A stretch of 39,862 nt of DNA, from assembly GCA_026713835.1 (NCBI GenBank), contig JAPONP010000194.1, forward strand, positions 1 to 39,862, in the 5' to 3' direction. Below, piece after piece: positions 4,613-13,098 of the stretch. The notes under the pieces were generated by a model, which was not told where the DNA came from, did no database searches, and saw nothing but the letters and a program-made list of their open reading frames with translations. The number at the start of each line of letters is the position of its first letter. The first letter of the stretch is position 1. A program made the position numbers and the translations under genes. Source of the DNA: Bacteriovoracales bacterium (GTDB taxonomy: Bacteria > Bdellovibrionota > Bacteriovoracia > Bacteriovoracales > Bacteriovoracaceae).

Positions 4613-6541
4613 ATGTCGGAAAGAGATAAAAATAAAATTTACTTCACATTTATTTTTTTCTTGCTGCTCTTTTTTATTATCATAAGTCGGGCCTTCTTTA
4701 TTCAAATCATCAGCAAAGAAAAGCTACTAACATACTCGAAAACCCAACTCATTCGCGAAACAACAATATTTCCAAATAGAGGAAATATTTACGATCGAAA
4801 CGGCCATCCGCTCTCCATCAATATCCAAACCTATAATATCTTCAGCATACCCAAAATGATGACTAATAGGGAAAAGACATTGAGAGCTCTGACCCGAATC
4901 GTTCCAAACCTCACAGTGAGACATCTCAAAAAAGTCCTCAAAAATCGAAAAAAGTTCACTTGGATCGAACGACAAATAAAACTTAATGAAAGTCAAATTA
5001 AAAAGATAAAAGATCTCAAGGGGATTTTTCTCGAAAAGACCACCAAAAGATTATACCCCAATCACGAACTCATGGCCCATATATTGGGGTTTGTCGGAGT
5101 TGATAATGTCGGTCTGAGCGGTATCGAATACCAATTTAATACTCTTCTTAAAGGGGATGCCAAAATCATCAAATACCTTAAAGATGCCAAAGGAAGACCC
5201 ATTAAATTTGAAAGTTATGATACCGAAACCAAGGCCCAAAATCTCTACCTCACCCTGGACAAGGACATTCAGGCCATCGCTGAAAAATATCTCAAAAGTG
5301 CTATTCAAAAGCATCGGGCAAAGAGAGGTGGAATCGGCATTATGAATGCAGATAACGGTGAAATTTTAGCCATGGCCAATTATCCGACATTTGACCCCAA
5401 TCAATTCGCCCTTTCAAAAGAGGCCGATCGAAGACCCTCCTTTGTCACAGATCCGTTTGAGCCGGGATCCGTATTTAAAATTTTTACCGTCATTAGTGCA
5501 ATAGAAAATAAAATTGTCACATCAAAAACAAATTACTTTTGTGAGTACGGGCAATTTCGCGTAGAGGGCCATGTCATTAGAGAATCCGATACATCAAAAA
5601 AATACGAATGGCTTTCCATTTCCGATATCATCAAATATAGCTCCAACATTGGCTCTGTTAAAGTTGCCTTTGATCTCGGTTTTCCCCTCTTTGATAAAAC
5701 GATCAAAAAATTTGGCTTTGATCAAAAAACGGCCATCGAACTTCCGGGAGAATCAAGAGGTATCTATAACCATAAAGGAAACATCTCCAAATTGAGCCTG
5801 AGTAATTTGAGCTTTGGACAAGGAGTGGCCGTTACGGCAATTCAAATGCTAAGTGCCTACAGTGCCTTGGCCAATGGAGGGGTTTATTACCCCCCGACTC
5901 TTATCAAGGCTCCAAAAACCTTAGAGGAAACAGAGACCCGTAAAGGGAAAAGAATTCTTCACTCCAATATAGTCCGTACGGCCCAGGATATGCTCTTTTC
6001 CGTTGTCGAAGAGGGGACGGGTACTCCGGCCCAAATTCCCTATTTTAAAATTGCAGGGAAGACGGGAACGGCCCAAAAAATAGATGCGGACGGACGCTAT
6101 ACCGGATATATCTCAAATTTTATTGGATTTCCCTTGGATATAGAAAAAAAGTTTGTGGTCTATGCCTATATCGAAAATCCCAAAGGCCCCTATTACACGG
6201 GAAGCCAAGTAGCCGCCCCCATCGTCAAGAAGATGATGGAATACATTCTATTTAAAAATAAAGAATATGAGAATCTTTCAGTCCAAGCTAAAAAAGCCGG
6301 GCCCTCAAATATAGATCTTGTCAAAATAAACAAGTCCATGAAGAATCGTTTCTCCAAGGGGAAAATACCAAATTTTATCGGACTCGATAAGAAATCGAGT
6401 ATGAATCTCGCCAAAAAAATAGGGATTCGACTCAAACATCGCGGTATCGGTGTGGTCGTCAAACAAAATATAAAATCGGGAACTCCTCTTTTAAGAGATA
6501 GTGTTATCGTCTTAGATCATAGGCCTCCGAATTATGAATAA
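4613..6541 (+). CDS. ftsI: Septal class B penicillin-binding protein FtsI (PBP3) with C-terminal PASTA domain
   Basis: Monofunctional D,D-transpeptidase that cross-links septal peptidoglycan with FtsW. ATG 4613 gives 642 residues. A TTG at 4601 would add four; neither start has a strong ribosome site. There is one N-terminal membrane anchor (about 9-31), then the class B motif FPNRGNIYDRNG, a pedestal domain, and the transpeptidase with SVFK (Ser286 to Lys289), SSN (343-345) and KTG (483-485). After the catalytic domain comes a PASTA-like unit with KIPNFIGLDKKSSMNLAKK and a final GTPLLRDSVIVL. The last 8 nt overlap murE, implying coupling. A PASTA tail is uncommon in gamma-proteobacterial FtsI but known in delta-type and Gram-positive enzymes. 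Confidence 0.93.
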   Translation: MSERDKNKIYFTFIFFLLLFFIIISRAFFIQIISKEKLLTYSKTQLIRETTIFPNRGNIYDRNGHPLSINIQTYNIFSIPKMMTNREKTLRALTRIVPNLTVRHLKKVLKNRKKFTWIERQIKLNESQIKKIKDLKGIFLEKTTKRLYPNHELMAHILGFVGVDNVGLSGIEYQFNTLLKGDAKIIKYLKDAKGRPIKFESYDTETKAQNLYLTLDKDIQAIAEKYLKSAIQKHRAKRGGIGIMNADNGEILAMANYPTFDPNQFALSKEADRRPSFVTDPFEPGSVFKIFTVISAIENKIVTSKTNYFCEYGQFRVEGHVIRESDTSKKYEWLSISDIIKYSSNIGSVKVAFDLGFPLFDKTIKKFGFDQKTAIELPGESRGIYNHKGNISKLSLSNLSFGQGVAVTAIQMLSAYSALANGGVYYPPTLIKAPKTLEETETRKGKRILHSNIVRTAQDMLFSVVEEGTGTPAQIPYFKIAGKTGTAQKIDADGRYTGYISNFIGFPLDIEKKFVVYAYIENPKGPYYTGSQVAAPIVKKMMEYILFKNKEYENLSVQAKKAGPSNIDLVKINKSMKNRFSKGKIPNFIGLDKKSSMNLAKKIGIRLKHRGIGVVVKQNIKSGTPLLRDSVIVLDHRPPNYE

Positions 6542-7946
6542 AGCTGAATTGCTTTCTATTCTTGAAAACGATATGGAATATAGTGCCTTTCAAGATGATT
6601 TTGAGTCCCACGATTTTCAACTTGGAGGTTGCACTTCTTATCTTGAAAGATCAACGCCAAGGGATCTTTGTTTTTACGATTTGAAAGAGGGGGACAAGGC
6701 CCAGAATCGATTGAAAAAACGTCTCTCAGCATCCAAAGTTGCTCTTCTTATTTTGAATAGACACTCCGAAGAACTCCGTGATGTCTTGGAAAAGACACCT
6801 CATCTCGTTATCAAAAAAAATCATTGGATATCCGCTCAAAAAAAAATCTGCGACCACTTCTATCCCCTTGAACTCGAATCAAAAAAAATGATCGGTGTAA
6901 CGGGAACAAACGGGAAAACGACGACCGTTTATCTCGCCTTACAAATTTTAGATCAAATAGGAGAGCGAGGCTTTTCCATCGGCTCCCTTGGGGTTCGCAA
7001 TTCTTCTCAAAAGCTAGAAGATATTCAAGATATGACGACCCCTCCCTATCCTGAATTGAGACGACTCCTCTTTCATTATTTTAAAAATTACAATGTTTGC
7101 GTCATGGAAGTGAGCAGCCACGGACTTGAGCAAGAAAGAGTTTATGGTCTTTTATATGATGCTGCCGGATGGACAAATTTCGATCGAGATCATCTCGACT
7201 ACCATAAAACTCTTGAAAAATACTTTGAGGCCAAATTGAAATTTCCAAAACATCATCTCAAGCCGAACAAACGTCTCCTCGTTTCAAGGGGAGAAAAAGA
7301 ATTGATTGAACGATTGAACGAAATCCCAATCCAAACCATAAAGACCCGAGATGAATCCAAAATGCTCTACCCCAAGGAGCATTTCTTTAGTGCTTCCTTC
7401 AATAGAAAAAACATGATGATGGCACTAGGGTTGATCGAAGAGACCTACGGAAAAACCATTCCTATCCAATGGGAAGAGATGGCCGGCCCTCCCGGAAGAT
7501 TTGAAATTCTGAAAAAGGGCCATAAAATGGGCATTATCGATTCAGCCCACACCCCGGACGCTTTCAAATCTATCTTGAAGGCCATTCGAGAGAGTTTTCC
7601 CGAACGAAAAATTATTACTGTCTTTGGGTGTGGGGGGGATAGAGATCGCGGGAAAAGGGCCCTGATGGGGAAAATGGCCGAACGATATTCAGATATCACC
7701 ATCGTCACATCAGATAATCCAAGATCTGAAAAGCCCGAACAAATTATAGATGAGATTATATCCCAAATGAAAGGGCCTTATCACCGAAAAACAGATCGCT
7801 CTCAGGCCATTGCCCTTGGAGTTTCTTTACTAAAAGATCAAAATTTGTTGGCCATTTTAGGTAAGGGTGCAGAGAATTATCAAATCATAGGATCGAAGAG
7901 AAAGGTTTTTTCCGATAGAGATGAGTTTTGCAAATATATTTCGTAA
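6534..7946 (+). CDS. murE: UDP-MurNAc-L-Ala-D-Glu:meso-diaminopimelate ligase MurE
   Basis: ATP-dependent addition of the third stem-peptide residue. The 470-residue product has an intact P-loop GTNGKTTT (124-131), EVSSHGLEQ (192-200), the RDHLDYH metal/substrate segment, AKLKFP with the lysine expected to be carbamylated, and DNPRSE at 394-399, the motif associated with meso-DAP rather than L-Lys. The N-terminal uridine-binding domain is atypical. The usual DSR-x-V-x-PG-x-LF segment is replaced by a YLERSTPRDLCFY-like stretch near 36-48, and the DYAHTPDA motif reads DSAHTPDA. The start overlaps ftsI by 8 nt. Function is well supported; the N-domain divergence is reported as a finding. Confidence 0.92.
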   Translation: MNKAELLSILENDMEYSAFQDDFESHDFQLGGCTSYLERSTPRDLCFYDLKEGDKAQNRLKKRLSASKVALLILNRHSEELRDVLEKTPHLVIKKNHWISAQKKICDHFYPLELESKKMIGVTGTNGKTTTVYLALQILDQIGERGFSIGSLGVRNSSQKLEDIQDMTTPPYPELRRLLFHYFKNYNVCVMEVSSHGLEQERVYGLLYDAAGWTNFDRDHLDYHKTLEKYFEAKLKFPKHHLKPNKRLLVSRGEKELIERLNEIPIQTIKTRDESKMLYPKEHFFSASFNRKNMMMALGLIEETYGKTIPIQWEEMAGPPGRFEILKKGHKMGIIDSAHTPDAFKSILKAIRESFPERKIITVFGCGGDRDRGKRALMGKMAERYSDITIVTSDNPRSEKPEQIIDEIISQMKGPYHRKTDRSQAIALGVSLLKDQNLLAILGKGAENYQIIGSKRKVFSDRDEFCKYIS

Positions 7947-7976: not shown

Positions 7977-9386
7977 ATGATCGATTCCAAAATCATTTTC
8001 TGCCCTGACTGGACAAGATCAATCCATCCTACGACTTCAAACCTTCCCACTTCACCCTGCCGTATCTCAACGGATAGTCGAACGATGGCCCCCGGGGACC
8101 TCTTCGTGGCCCTGTCCGGAGAGAATTTCGAGGGAACGGACTTTGCCGAGGAAGCCTTAAAAAAGGGCGCCCTTGGGCTCGTTTACCCGACCCGCACCCA
8201 TAATAATAAACAAGATCAAATTCCATCTCTCATCAAACGCTTCGAGGATCGCTTTTTTATCGAAGTCAACGATACCCACAAGTATCTCAAAGCCGTGGCC
8301 AAGGCCCATATATCTCAATGGAAACAGAAGGGAGGGCGAGTCATCGGAATCACCGGCTCCAACGGCAAAACGACGACCAAAGAGATGCTGGCCTTCCTCA
8401 TCGAATCTTTGATTGGGGATAAGCTTCTCTATGGACATGGAAGTTTCAACAATCAGATCGGTGTGCCTTTGACAATTTTTAGGCTCCTTCCAGGCCATGA
8501 ATTGGCCATCATCGAAATGGGGACAAATCAAAAGGGAGAAATCGCCTCTTTATGCGATATGGCCTTGCCCGATATGGGCATCATCACCAATGTCTCAAAA
8601 ACCCACTTGGAATACCTTGGAGATGAAGACGGTGTTTTTCTTGAAAAACGGGCCCTTTATGATTCCGTTATGAAAAATTCTAAGAGAGAGGGAGCTTTTA
8701 TCCTCAATGCAGATAATCCCTATTTGAGGTCTCTTTCCCCAAATAAAAATGTCATTACCTTTGGAGAACGATTTGGAAGTCAAAAAATCCAATTTCGTTA
8801 CGGGAAAGTCCAAATCGACGACATTGTATTGAAAAATACATCCATAACGGGAAAACACAATTTAACAAATTTGACCTGTTCGTTTTTGATGGCCAGATAC
8901 CTTTTTCCCCATCGGGTTCAAGAATTGCTTAATGCGGCCGCCCGTTTCTGTCCTCGCCCAAATCGATCCTCTTGGGTCAAAAGGGGGAGAACCGATATCT
9001 TTCTCGACGCCTATAACGCCAACCCCACCTCCATGAAAATGGCCATAGAAGGCTTTATGGAAGCCGTTTCCAGAGCCGACGTAAGTTTAGAGAACGTCCT
9101 GTGGATTGTAGGAGATATGAATGAACTGGGAGAGCACACGGAAAGCTGCCATGAAGAATTGGGGGAGATCTTACAAAACCTCGGGGCCCGTCACATCATT
9201 TTTGTGGGCCGATATTACCGATACTTCAAAAAGGGATTGCCCCCAAAGCTGCCAGGCCTGCACCACCTTCAATGTACCAACGATCTCAAAAACACCCTAG
9301 GAACAAACCCTATCGGTTCCTTTGAAATGGTCTTTATCAAAGGCAGTCGCTCTTTACAATTGGAGACATTCATCGATATAAAGTAA
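7977..9386 (+). CDS. murF: UDP-MurNAc-tripeptide:D-alanyl-D-alanine ligase MurF
   Basis: Adds the D-Ala-D-Ala dipeptide, completing the cytoplasmic UDP-MurNAc-pentapeptide. The 469-residue product keeps all hallmarks: the N-domain DSR motif (STDSRTMAPGDLFVAL, 31-46), P-loop GSNGKTTT (127-134), IIEMGTNQKGEI, NADNPYL, DAYNANPTSM and the GDMNELG loop. It starts 30 nt after murE with a weak ribosome site and ends 34 nt before mraY. Its conserved P-loop and DSR motif are the useful internal contrast to the degenerate murD and to the unusual murE N-terminus. Confidence 0.96.
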   Translation: MIDSKIIFCPDWTRSIHPTTSNLPTSPCRISTDSRTMAPGDLFVALSGENFEGTDFAEEALKKGALGLVYPTRTHNNKQDQIPSLIKRFEDRFFIEVNDTHKYLKAVAKAHISQWKQKGGRVIGITGSNGKTTTKEMLAFLIESLIGDKLLYGHGSFNNQIGVPLTIFRLLPGHELAIIEMGTNQKGEIASLCDMALPDMGIITNVSKTHLEYLGDEDGVFLEKRALYDSVMKNSKREGAFILNADNPYLRSLSPNKNVITFGERFGSQKIQFRYGKVQIDDIVLKNTSITGKHNLTNLTCSFLMARYLFPHRVQELLNAAARFCPRPNRSSWVKRGRTDIFLDAYNANPTSMKMAIEGFMEAVSRADVSLENVLWIVGDMNELGEHTESCHEELGEILQNLGARHIIFVGRYYRYFKKGLPPKLPGLHHLQCTNDLKNTLGTNPIGSFEMVFIKGSRSLQLETFIDIK

Positions 9387-9420: not shown

Positions 9421-10497
9421 ATGCTCTATCACATCCTCTATCCCTTAAATGCAGAGATTTCATTCTTCAATATCTTCCGCTATATCACGGTGCGCTCCTT
9501 TTTCGCCTTCGCTCTGGCCCTTCTCTTCTCCATCCTCCTTGGAAAAAAATTTATCAACTTCATGCAAAAACACCAATTCGGCCAAATCGTCCGAGATGAT
9601 GGGCCTCAAAGCCATTACAAAAAAAGGGGAACCCCGACCCTGGGGGGGATCCTTATTTTCTCCGCCCTCACTTTCTCCCTCGTCCTTTGCGGCAATTGGC
9701 AGGCATGGCCTTTTAGTGCGTCGTGCTTAATCATGTTCTGTTTTTTTGTGCTTGGCATTACAGATGACCTTCTCAAGCTCCGAAGAAAAAACTCCGACGG
9801 TCTTTCGGCCAAAACAAAACTTTTTTGGCAATTTCTCATCGCCATGGCCACCATGTTCGTTCTCATTCGAGTAGGTGCTACGGATACGATGCTTTACGTC
9901 CCCTTTCATAAAGGCCCTCTCGTGGATCTAGGCTGGCCTTACCTTCTCTTTGCCTCCATCGTCATCGTGGGATCGAGCAATGCCGTCAACCTCACGGACG
10001 GACTCGACGGTCTGGCCATCGGCCCGATAATAAGCAGTGCAGCAAGCCTTGGGATCATCGCCTATCTCACGGGCCACTTCGAGTTGGCCAAGTACCTCTA
10101 TATCCCCCACTTTACCAACGTGGGGGAGTTGGTCGTCCTCGCTGCCGCCGTCATCGGCGCAGGTCTTGGCTTTTTGTGGTATAATTCTTTTCCTGCAGAG
10201 ATTTTTATGGGAGATGTGGGCTCTTTGTCCCTTGGAGGATTTTTGGGACTCATGGCCGTTCTCACAAAAAGTGAAATTCTCTTCATCATGATCGGAGGCA
10301 TTTTCGTGATTGAGGCCCTAAGTGTTATCATCCAAGTGGGTTCATATAAAATGAGAGGGAAACGAATTTTTAAAATGGCCCCCATCCACCACCATTTTGA
10401 ACTCAAAGGATGGCCGGAACCAAAGGTCATCGTTAGATTTTGGATCATCAGCATCCTCTTGGCCATTTTTGCTATCGGAACACTCAAAATAAGATAA
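9421..10497 (+). CDS. mraY: Phospho-N-acetylmuramoyl-pentapeptide transferase MraY
   Basis: Integral membrane enzyme transferring phospho-MurNAc-pentapeptide to undecaprenyl phosphate, giving lipid I. The 358-residue polytopic protein has the family length and about ten hydrophobic segments. Conserved cytoplasmic motifs are RRGTPTLGG, TDDLLK (Asp115-Asp116), SAKTKLFWQF, NLTDGLDGLA (Asp193, Asp196), FMGDVGSLSLGG (Asp265) and the PIHHHFEL histidine motif near 323-330. A GGAGAGG ribosome site precedes the ATG. It is followed after 15 nt by murD. Confidence 0.97.
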   Translation: MLYHILYPLNAEISFFNIFRYITVRSFFAFALALLFSILLGKKFINFMQKHQFGQIVRDDGPQSHYKKRGTPTLGGILIFSALTFSLVLCGNWQAWPFSASCLIMFCFFVLGITDDLLKLRRKNSDGLSAKTKLFWQFLIAMATMFVLIRVGATDTMLYVPFHKGPLVDLGWPYLLFASIVIVGSSNAVNLTDGLDGLAIGPIISSAASLGIIAYLTGHFELAKYLYIPHFTNVGELVVLAAAVIGAGLGFLWYNSFPAEIFMGDVGSLSLGGFLGLMAVLTKSEILFIMIGGIFVIEALSVIIQVGSYKMRGKRIFKMAPIHHHFELKGWPEPKVIVRFWIISILLAIFAIGTLKIR

Positions 10498-10512: not shown

Positions 10513-11892
10513 ATGGATCGTTATCGGAATAAAAATGTTCTTATTGTCGGCATCGGCAAAACGGGTTTTGCCCTAATCAATTTTTTTAATAGTCTCGACT
10601 GTCATATTACAGTGACCGACATCAAGCCTATTTTTGATCTCAATAAAGCGGTTAAAAAGTTAAAAAAAATCACGCCGGCCATTCAAATGACATTTGGAGA
10701 GCATCGAGACGAAGATTTTTTGAAAGCTGATGTGATCGTTTATAGCTCTTCCGTCAATCCCAATCTCCCTCAACTTCAACTGGCCAAAAATCACGGTCGA
10801 GCTGTCTTTAGTGAATTTGCATTAGCCAATCAACTTTGCGACAAACCAATCATTTCCGTCTGCGGCCGTTTTGGAAGGAGTTCCGTCGCCCATATGATTA
10901 GCTATGCCTTAAAGCTAAATGGCTCAAATACTTTCGTCGGTGGCACACCGGATAACCCTTTTATCAACCTTTTCTTGCAAGACAAATATGATGAGATCGA
11001 TTACGTCATCGTCGAAACAAATTCTTTGCAACTCAAGGGGCTTGAGGGTTTTCATCCTATTCTCGTCGTCTATACAGAGATTGGCCCGGAATACCCGGAG
11101 GACCACTTTGGTTTCTACGGAGATTATCTCAATACGAAACTCAGTGCCACTAAAAATCTAAACTCAGATAATTTTCTCATCGTCAACTTTGATCGTCTGG
11201 CCAATCATACCTTTTTTAGAAACCAAAAAGCCCAAACCTATTGGTACTCAAGAAAGTCATTTTCAAAAATGGGAGTTATTCACGAAATACAAGGAACTCA
11301 TTTTCATGAGAGAAGGATTCACTCCAACATTCACTTTCATTCAGAATTTCGAGTCACCAATATGAGAATTGTCGGTCAACAAAACCGAGAAAGCCTTTTA
11401 GCAGCTATTACGGCGTGTAAAGCTCTTGGGGTTTCAAATAAGTCGATCCAAGAACTCATTATTAAATTCCCCGGAACCCCCCATAATCTCGAATACATTA
11501 CCGAAAAAAATGGTGTTCGTTTTTATAATGACTCCCAATCAGAAAATATGTCCCAGGTCGCTGAAAGCGTTAAGGCCTTTAAAGATTCGGTTATCCTTAT
11601 TGCCGGAGGCAAAGATACAGAACAAGACTATGAACTCTATGCAGAACAATTGGGGAGTCATGTTCGAGTTATAGTCCTCGTCGGAGAATGTAAGGAAAGA
11701 ATGAATAGAGTCCTTGGCAACATAGCCCAAACCTATTTGGTGGGTTCATTTGAGGAAAGCATTCTTATTGCATACCAAAAATCGAGGACCGGAGATACGA
11801 TCCTTCTCTCCCCCGGAAATCCGGCCACAGATATTTTTAGAGATTTCAAGGAAAGGGGAAACTACTATAAAAAATTGATTTACCAATTTTAG
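10513..11892 (+). CDS. murD: MurD-family protein with degenerate ATP/substrate site (UDP-MurNAc-L-Ala:D-Glu ligase or pseudo-ligase)
   Basis: By position, length (459 residues) and three-domain layout this is MurD, which adds D-Glu to UDP-MurNAc-L-Ala. The N-domain fold is retained (VLIVGIGKTGFALINFF at 9-25). The ATPase domain is not canonical. The expected GTNGKTT reads GRFGRSS (118-124, Arg122 at the catalytic Lys position). The Mg-binding DH motif is replaced by EY (193-194). The HRxE arginine is Asn325. NDSKATN reads NDSQSEN (339-345). GG-x-DKG reads GGKDTEQ. SPACAS reads SPGNPA. Retained are Glu168, Lys209 (carbamylation site by alignment), Asp340 and Phe442. The frame is open, codons look like the neighbours', and GAGGGG precedes the ATG, so it is an expressed, selected gene rather than a decaying one. 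Assignment to the family is strong; catalytic activity is doubtful. Confidence 0.85.
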   Translation: MDRYRNKNVLIVGIGKTGFALINFFNSLDCHITVTDIKPIFDLNKAVKKLKKITPAIQMTFGEHRDEDFLKADVIVYSSSVNPNLPQLQLAKNHGRAVFSEFALANQLCDKPIISVCGRFGRSSVAHMISYALKLNGSNTFVGGTPDNPFINLFLQDKYDEIDYVIVETNSLQLKGLEGFHPILVVYTEIGPEYPEDHFGFYGDYLNTKLSATKNLNSDNFLIVNFDRLANHTFFRNQKAQTYWYSRKSFSKMGVIHEIQGTHFHERRIHSNIHFHSEFRVTNMRIVGQQNRESLLAAITACKALGVSNKSIQELIIKFPGTPHNLEYITEKNGVRFYNDSQSENMSQVAESVKAFKDSVILIAGGKDTEQDYELYAEQLGSHVRVIVLVGECKERMNRVLGNIAQTYLVGSFEESILIAYQKSRTGDTILLSPGNPATDIFRDFKERGNYYKKLIYQF

Positions 11893-11910: not shown

Positions 11911-13098
11911 ATGATAAATTTTTCAACCCATAAGGCCTTGCGATCTCTTCTCATTGTATTCGCTCTTTTAACCGCTATCGGTATCGTGATGGTCTATTCA
12001 TCGAGTTATATCTTTGCCAAAGAAAGTCTTGGAGACTCGGCTTATTTTTTCAAAAAACAGCTTATCGTTGCGACTCTCGGTCTTGTGGCCATTTTTATCG
12101 TCCAATCCGTCAATTTTGGAACATTATTTAAGTACTTTCCTGCCATTCATCTCATCGCAACATTCTTTTTGTTTTGTACTTTTATCCCGGAATTTGGAGT
12201 CAATATCAAAGGCTCTCGCCGCTGGCTAGATTTCGGACCTTTCGTTATTCAACCGGGAGAATTTATCAAATACACCATCGCCCTTTTTGCCATCAACTAT
12301 TTTAGTCATTTTAATAGGATGATTCTTAAAAAGAAAATCGTTGGTCTTCTTAACTTAATGATTCCCCTCGCCCTTTTTATCTTTCAACCGGATTTTGGTT
12401 CCTTTACCATCTGTCTTATCATCATTAGCTTTGTAGCCTTTTTGAGTGATTTTCCAAGAAGATATCTTTATATGGGGGCCGCTCTATGTACGTCGGGTAT
12501 TATTTTATTGATTTTTGAAGCCCCCTATAGAATCCAAAGGTTGATGTCTTACCTAGATCCCTGGCAGGATCCAAAAAAATCGGGCTTTCAAATTATTCAA
12601 TCATTTTTGGCCTTTGCCAATGGCTCCTTTTGGGGTAAGGGACTTGGCAACAGCAATGAAAAGTTATTCTACCTTCCCGAAGCTCATAATGATTTTATTT
12701 TTAGCGTTATTGGAGAAGAATTGGGGTTTATATGGGGAGTTCTTCCCATCGTTGCCCTCTTTATTGCCATGACCTTTCTGGGATTTAAAATTGCTCTGGC
12801 CTTAAAATCAAAAACAGCTGCCGTAACGATCAGTACAATCATTTTTGCCATTGCCGTTCAGGCCCTTTTGAATATGGGCGTCGTTCTTGGCCTTTTACCG
12901 ACAAAAGGTCTCAATCTCCCTTTTATTAGCTATGGTGGCTCATCCCTTCTCGCCAATCTCTTGGCCATTGGAGTTATCATCTCAAGTGCCAAAAACTCCT
13001 CTCCCGATCAAAATCCTTCCGATCTTTCTGATTTTTCTTCTCGCAAAAGAGCTCCCTATTCCTACCGAATAGACTATCGCTCACGAGTTCAAAAATGA
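11911..13098 (+). CDS. ftsW: SEDS-family septal peptidoglycan polymerase FtsW
   Basis: Polytopic SEDS glycosyltransferase that polymerises lipid II at the septum with FtsI. The 395-residue product has about ten membrane helices. Family motifs include GIVMVYSSS in the first helix, GSRRWLDFGPFVIQPGEFIK, YLDPWQDPKKSGFQIIQS (periplasmic loop), GNSNEKLFYLPEAHNDFIFSVIGEELG (with catalytic-loop residues) and the final LPFISYGGSSLLANLLAIG. Its TGA overlaps the murG ATG (ATGA). Placement between murD and murG supports FtsW rather than its elongation paralogue RodA. Confidence 0.94.
   Translation: MINFSTHKALRSLLIVFALLTAIGIVMVYSSSYIFAKESLGDSAYFFKKQLIVATLGLVAIFIVQSVNFGTLFKYFPAIHLIATFFLFCTFIPEFGVNIKGSRRWLDFGPFVIQPGEFIKYTIALFAINYFSHFNRMILKKKIVGLLNLMIPLALFIFQPDFGSFTICLIIISFVAFLSDFPRRYLYMGAALCTSGIILLIFEAPYRIQRLMSYLDPWQDPKKSGFQIIQSFLAFANGSFWGKGLGNSNEKLFYLPEAHNDFIFSVIGEELGFIWGVLPIVALFIAMTFLGFKIALALKSKTAAVTISTIIFAIAVQALLNMGVVLGLLPTKGLNLPFISYGGSSLLANLLAIGVIISSAKNSSPDQNPSDLSDFSSRKRAPYSYRIDYRSRVQK

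Follow-up and report, generated by a model that had tools for sequence, protein, structure and literature searches.

MurD is regarded as an essential and invariant catalyst of cell-wall synthesis. What, then, is encoded by a murD gene that stands in its usual place in the division and cell wall (dcw) cluster and has lost the catalytic signature of the Mur ligases? This question is raised by a 39,862-nucleotide stretch of a Bacteriovoracales genome (contig JAPONP010000194.1 of assembly GCA_026713835.1; hereafter 'the window'), in which a first-pass annotation had noted such a protein. We use the label D1 for the dcw-encoded MurD homologue of the Bacteriovoracaceae, a family of predators and the one family to which all sampled genomes of the class belong. 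We consider it likely that D1 is a pseudo-ligase kept for some structural or regulatory function in a cytoplasmic Mur complex, and that an unlinked paralogue carries out the ligation.

A MurD homologue with a degenerate active site

The gene was identified from its profile match and synteny:

10513-11892, + strand: D1, dcw MurD homologue and proposed pseudo-ligase, 459 amino acids (TIGR01087 match, synteny)

The TIGR01087 murD profile scores window D1 at 266.9 bits (cut-off 211.95), with homology over the full length, and the protein carries the Pfam domains MurD-like_N, Mur_ligase_M and Mur_ligase_C. Its fold matches MurD structures in Foldseek (E 6.6e-28). In a separate comparison with solved structures, the MurD 3lk7 is the best match (E 7e-47). 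By descent D1 belongs to the MurD ligases, given both the profile score and its nested position among dcw MurDs. Its active site is another matter. In the following features, residue numbers given in three-letter code for the reference positions are those of E. coli MurD with the first Met not counted, and residue counts come from 40 family D1 sequences aligned in detail, with the P-loop read in 72 distinct sequences.

10861-10884, + strand: C117-S124, degenerate P-loop CGRFGRSS in place of the canonical TGxNGKT[TS] (sequence; CGxxGR family-wide)
10939-10959, + strand: GGTPDNP, Asn138 replaced by Thr145 (Asn138 gone in 39 of 40)
11014-11037, + strand: ETNSLQLK, Glu157 kept as E168, Ser159 replaced by Asn170 (residue alignment)
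11077-11109, + strand: EIGPEYPEDHF, Mg-binding His183 replaced by Tyr194 (His183 in 0 of 40)
11137-11139, + strand: K209, equivalent of the carbamylated Lys198, kept (kept in 29 of 40, lost in 11)
11392-11394, + strand: Ser294 at the nucleotide-site position of Asn271 (Asn in 39 of 40, Ser only in the window)
11482-11487, + strand: H324-N325, HR changed to HN, Arg302 lost in the window (present in 38 of 40)
11527-11547, + strand: NDSQSEN, Lys319 replaced by Gln342 (window only) and Thr321 by Glu344 (family-wide; residue alignment)
11605-11625, + strand: GGKDTEQ, D-glutamate (D-Glu)-binding Lys348 lost (T369; residue alignment)
11809-11838, + strand: SPGNPATDIF, D-Glu-binding Ser415 replaced by Ala438 (Ser in 22 of 40, Ala in 18)

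The P-loop reading GRFGRSS with its Arg122, like the open reading frame and coordinates first proposed, stands in the sequence, and no P-loop of the form GxxGK[ST] occurs at this position in the D1 of the window or of its family relatives. All 72 distinct Bacteriovoracaceae dcw MurDs have CGxxGR (one of them, with CGSFGRTT, escaped the search pattern), Lys115 is Arg in 40/40, and Thr110 to Cys and the loss of Asn113 are common to the family; the alignment around this loop is ungapped. Lys115 is the phosphate-binding P-loop Lys of MurD and His183 the Mg-binding His, and Asn138 touches MurNAc in the E. coli enzyme. The proposed loss of the Mg-binding His, read as EY in the window, likewise extends to every family member. 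The aligned family sequences hold no conserved Lys or His at a shifted position that might serve instead: H198 of 'PEDHF', the only nearby His, is unconserved in relatives and was rejected as a candidate.

Other changes that the first-pass annotation listed are real in the window and differ in reach. The Asn325 in place of the HRFE arginine is not a shared loss, and of the change from NDSKATN to NDSQSEN the missing Lys319 is private to the window (39/40 keep it), while Glu replaces Thr321 in 37/40. The GG-DKG change involves a family-wide loss of Lys348, the position being T, I, N, V or S, whereas the SPACAS change to Ala at Ser415 is found in fewer than half of the family. The carbamylated Lys is indeed kept in the window but not throughout the family. 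Asp340, the equivalent of Asp317, is retained as claimed, and the window also keeps His301, Glu157 and Lys198; Glu157 is present in 40/40 and Ser159, Asn in the window, in 38/40. Thus the substitutions shared with relatives are those at the P-loop, His183, Asn138 and Thr321, together with Lys348.

Lost from window D1 are Lys115, His183, Asn138, Asn271, Arg302, Lys319, Thr321, Lys348 and Ser415, and by these counts it is the most degraded, or derived, family member. At the nucleotide site Asp340 alone remains of Arg302, Asp317 and Lys319, all three of which are present in most relatives. The D-Glu site, to which Lys348, Thr321 and Ser415 of MurD belong (PMC3527612), reads E344, T369 and A438. 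The loss of Lys348 is by itself weak evidence, as the residue is also absent (Thr or Ser) from four otherwise intact sister-family MurDs. Lys198, whose role in MurD has been described (PMC4816537), is in place as K209.

A second, intact MurD in the same genome

The genome of the window encodes another MurD elsewhere (G000:C196:2498-3811), which scores above the murD cut-off and has a TGTNGKTT P-loop, the catalytic His, Lys198, Arg302 and NDSKSTN. A Mur_ligase_M scan of this genome returned, besides MurE, MurF and MurC, only the two MurDs and a short frame resembling Mpl (murein peptide ligase). This frame (G000:C184:14258-14662), identified by eye, has 302 residues and GTHGKS, lies at a contig end and is short or broken in the assembly.

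A second MurD is present in every sampled family genome at least 90% complete except one (G022), although in G032 it is interrupted by a contig end. The P-loop Lys, His183, Lys198, Arg302, Asp317, Lys319 and Thr321 are found in 32/32 aligned copies, and all three that were scanned exceed the murD equivalog cut-off. The gene lies outside the dcw cluster, with mraY or ftsW adjoining in 0/33 loci. It is not a duplicate of D1, as a single clade of both was rejected (approximately unbiased test, p-AU 0.017).

The first-pass annotation had offered two hypotheses: a pseudo-ligase with D-Glu added by another enzyme, or a MurD with a different nucleotide-site geometry, which the absence of any other MurD would have favoured. 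The existence of the second MurD strongly favours the former and removes the support named for the latter.

Strong conservation after a burst of change

Homologues of D1 occur in 73/73 genomes of the class that are at least 90% complete, with 57-69% identity, no stops and nearly always full length. Among seven dcw proteins compared, D1 is the best conserved, with a median identity to the window of 64.8% against 62.8% for mraY, 50.1% for ftsW, 49.9% for murC, 43.7% for murG (8 loci only), 38.3% for murE and 36.9% for murF. Over 48 non-independent genome pairs, D1 ranks lowest among six dcw genes both in non-synonymous divergence (dN 0.148) and in the ratio of non-synonymous to synonymous divergence (dN/dS 0.089); synonymous sites are near saturation, so that the ranking is more reliable than the values. 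The second MurD, by comparison, has a median identity of 36% vs 66% for D1.

In the tree, D1 forms a single clade (100/100) within the dcw MurDs of sister families, on a long stem (1.12) followed by mostly short branches, which points to a burst of change and then stasis, as expected for a changed function. Although Asn271, Arg302 and Lys319 are gone from the window lineage, its overall conservation is undiminished, an argument against nucleotide use as the property under selection. Judged on these alignments, the degenerate active site is a family-wide state and not drift or error, in agreement with the original suspicion that poor sequence was not to blame. D1 combines lost catalytic residues with a retained fold and purifying selection, as a pseudo-enzyme does.

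Two segments of D1 stand out in the family alignment:

11242-11349, + strand: W244-F279, family-specific near-invariant segment, WYSRKSF..GV..E.QGTHFHERRIHSNI..HSEF, with H263, H265, H270 and H276 (family alignment)
10513-10845, + strand: N-terminal domain (residues 1-111), conserved, candidate part for binding UDP-N-acetylmuramic acid (UDP-MurNAc) (family alignment)

The His-rich segment 244-279 is absent from active MurDs: the surrounding region 238-285 has a median identity of 0.73 among family D1 vs 0.20 and 0.18 among intact MurDs. Within it H263, H265 and R268 are each found in 40/40 family D1, H270 in 37/40 and H276 in 38/40. The N-domain shows a median identity of 0.70 in family D1 vs 0.42 in sister dcw MurDs and 0.32 in the second MurD, and its UDP-site residues are kept almost without exception (Gly14 and Asp35 in 40/40, Thr16 in 39/40, Lys or Arg at 37 in 40/40). 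Two of these positions have diverged in the second MurD, where Asp35 is Asn in 23/32 and Arg37 is Gly in 24/32.

The dcw neighbourhood

D1 lies in a standard dcw cluster that runs rsmH, ftsI, murE, murF, mraY, D1, ftsW, murG, murC, murB, ftsA, ftsZ, and the order murE-murF-mraY-murD-ftsW-(murG)-murC is retained in nearly all of 52 loci. Its immediate neighbours are:

9421-10497: mraY, before D1, 15 bases apart
11911-13098: ftsW, after D1, 18 bases apart

The ligases beside it have intact P-loops, as first reported (MurE TGTNGKT, MurF TGSNGKT, MurC SGTHGKT). MurE (6534-7946) and MurF (7977-9386) evolve at an unusually high rate in the Bacteriovoracaceae, with a median identity of about 37-38% and dN/dS of about 0.32, in contrast to the slowly evolving mraY and D1.

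Sister families and a possible second case

With one family set aside, sister families within the phylum have dcw MurDs with [TA]GTNGK[ST] P-loops, and with His183 in 12/12. Three of these MurDs (L071 of genome G041, L074 and L075) are otherwise intact with Gln162 replaced by Met and Lys348 by Thr, a state that is possibly an intermediate; a second MurD (L088) is encoded in G041 as well.

The family set aside, f7 (4 genomes, 4 genera), keeps an intact P-loop in its dcw MurDs (L166, also L081; L169, also L082; L167; L168), and mraY adjoins in both copies checked. All copies lack Glu157, Lys198 and Lys319, and elsewhere the genome carries an intact MurD that belongs to a different clade. These features suggest that f7 is a second pseudo-MurD lineage; the different residues lost and the different paralogues that would replace it suggest an independent event.

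A proposed role for D1

We propose that an ordinary dcw MurD lost ATP-driven glutamate ligation in the family ancestor and was then retained for a different job, glutamate ligation being performed by the unlinked paralogue with its complete active site. The phosphate-binding Lys, the Mg-binding His and the Glu site are lost, an intact paralogue exists, and purifying selection on D1 exceeds that on working ligases; this combination fits a pseudo-enzyme selected for something else. The likeliest job would be structural or regulatory, within a cytoplasmic Mur/MurG/MraY/FtsW complex that passes UDP-MurNAc-peptides to MraY and MurG; this reading rests on the position in the operon, on the conservation of the domain that holds the UDP site and on published binding of MurD to MurG and MreB. 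The MurD of Thermotoga maritima binds MurG and MreB (PMC6420597). D1 has probably kept, in its N-domain, the ability to recognise UDP-MurNAc nucleotides, and its His-rich segment 244-279 is likely to contact either a partner or a metal. It is from sequence that we infer the inactivity of D1, the activity of its paralogue, the structural or regulatory role and the binding of UDP-MurNAc.

A more specific form of this proposal, which we put forward tentatively and with somewhat less than even confidence, is that D1 is a sensor or assembly factor that binds UDP-MurNAc and, through the His-rich site, a partner or metal, that it is selected more strongly than its working neighbours, and that f7 arrived at the same state by other losses.

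Several observations weigh against a non-catalytic D1 or parts of the account built on it. In the majority of species ATP binding could persist, since most D1 proteins retain Glu157, Asp317, Lys319, Arg302 and His301; a Walker-type loop with an Arg sometimes permits nucleotide binding. Structure models give good confidence for most of the fold, including the N-domain, and a predicted local distance difference test (pLDDT) score of only 25-43 for segment 244-279. No second MurD was found in G022 (95% complete, 220 contigs). A single clade of D1 with f7 is not rejected (p-AU 0.133), which bears on the independence of f7.

Alternative explanations

The retained residues would also fit a D1 that is still ATP-dependent and joins some other amine or amino acid, such as a basic one, to a UDP-MurNAc precursor, with Arg122 replacing the P-loop Lys and Glu344 the Thr that binds the D-Glu carboxylate. 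The invariance of CGxxGR, the conservation of the Thr321 to Glu change itself, the adenine-side residues of most D1, the strong purifying selection and the conserved new His cluster all speak for it. We nevertheless find it unlikely: the catalytic His is absent from all members and the carbamylated Lys from 11/40, Asp317 is gone in one further lineage, and ATP use is hard to reconcile with the window lineage, which is conserved overall without Asn271, Arg302 and Lys319. An altered ligase is thus possible for members with the adenine-side residues and hard to hold for the window lineage.

Also unlikely, and placed after the altered ligase, is a D1 that acts as a non-catalytic partner activating the second MurD in a hetero-oligomer and not as an assembly factor at the membrane steps. 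Pairs of pseudo-enzyme and enzyme are common in biology, the two proteins co-occur in practically all genomes, and D1 retains the UDP-site residues at 35 and 37, where the second MurD has changed. Against this, their evolutionary rates differ widely, unlike those of typical obligate partners, and MurD is monomeric in known structures.

That D1 is a decaying pseudogene product held only by its place between mraY and ftsW would account for the missing catalytic residues and is very improbable; conservation in 73/73 near-complete genomes without stops, the lowest dN/dS of the six dcw genes and the near-invariant new segment reject it. A sequencing, assembly or alignment artefact, to which the 235 contigs of the window assembly and the private changes N325, Q342 and S294, with no second genome of the genus, might point, has a negligible chance and is refuted for the family-wide changes: 72 distinct sequences, drawn from numerous genera and from assemblies of which some have few contigs, share the P-loop change, and the alignment there is ungapped.

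Relation to known systems

D1 resembles the MurD of the E. coli and S. agalactiae structures in its three-domain fold, length, operon place, N-domain UDP-site residues and Asp317, and in most members Arg302 and Lys319; it differs in having the His-rich segment and in lacking the P-loop Lys, catalytic His, Asn138, Thr321 and Lys348. Scaffolding of Mur ligases around MurG and MreB (PMC6420597) is a documented case in which MurD associates with both proteins; the MurD there is an active enzyme. Another Mur ligase homologue whose main role lies outside peptidoglycan ligation is PAP11, the MurE-like protein of plant plastids, which acts alongside the plastid RNA polymerase in the expression of plastid genes (PMC4080259, PMC9434261). 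PAP11 differs from D1 in belonging to a plant organelle and to the MurE lineage, outside a peptidoglycan operon. In the literature covered, which leaves out most subscription papers, we found no description of a second or non-catalytic MurD in predators.

The second MurD shares Arg348 (32/32), Pro414 and Phe416, three of four distinguishing residues, with the MurD2 of Xanthomonas (PMC8788868). That enzyme is L-Glu-specific, and a Glu at the position of Asp182 is one of the two residues that set its stereospecificity (PMC8788868); the second MurD has Asn, Ser, Thr or His there and so lacks the combination of Glu at 182 and Arg at 348. D1 is not MurD2-like. The window's genome resembles the MurD2/MurL route of Xanthomonas (PMC8788868) in having no detectable MurI: no match to MurI or to the Asp/Glu racemase family was found in it, and several relatives in the family likewise gave none. 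Most genomes of the family do have MurI, which differs from that route. Two aminotransferase class IV (Aminotran_4) genes of the window's genome might supply D-Glu, or the route may be a different one; the better of the two proteins has its top score as a branched-chain aminotransferase, below all listed cut-offs.

A family-wide pseudo-MurD, better conserved than the working ligases of its operon, would mean that MurD can also have a non-catalytic duty, one that can be separated from ligation. The long-debated cytoplasmic Mur complex would thereby become testable genetically in a cultured predator. In the genomes of the Bacteriovoracaceae, the automatic annotation 'murD' probably labels the wrong gene as the D-Glu ligase.
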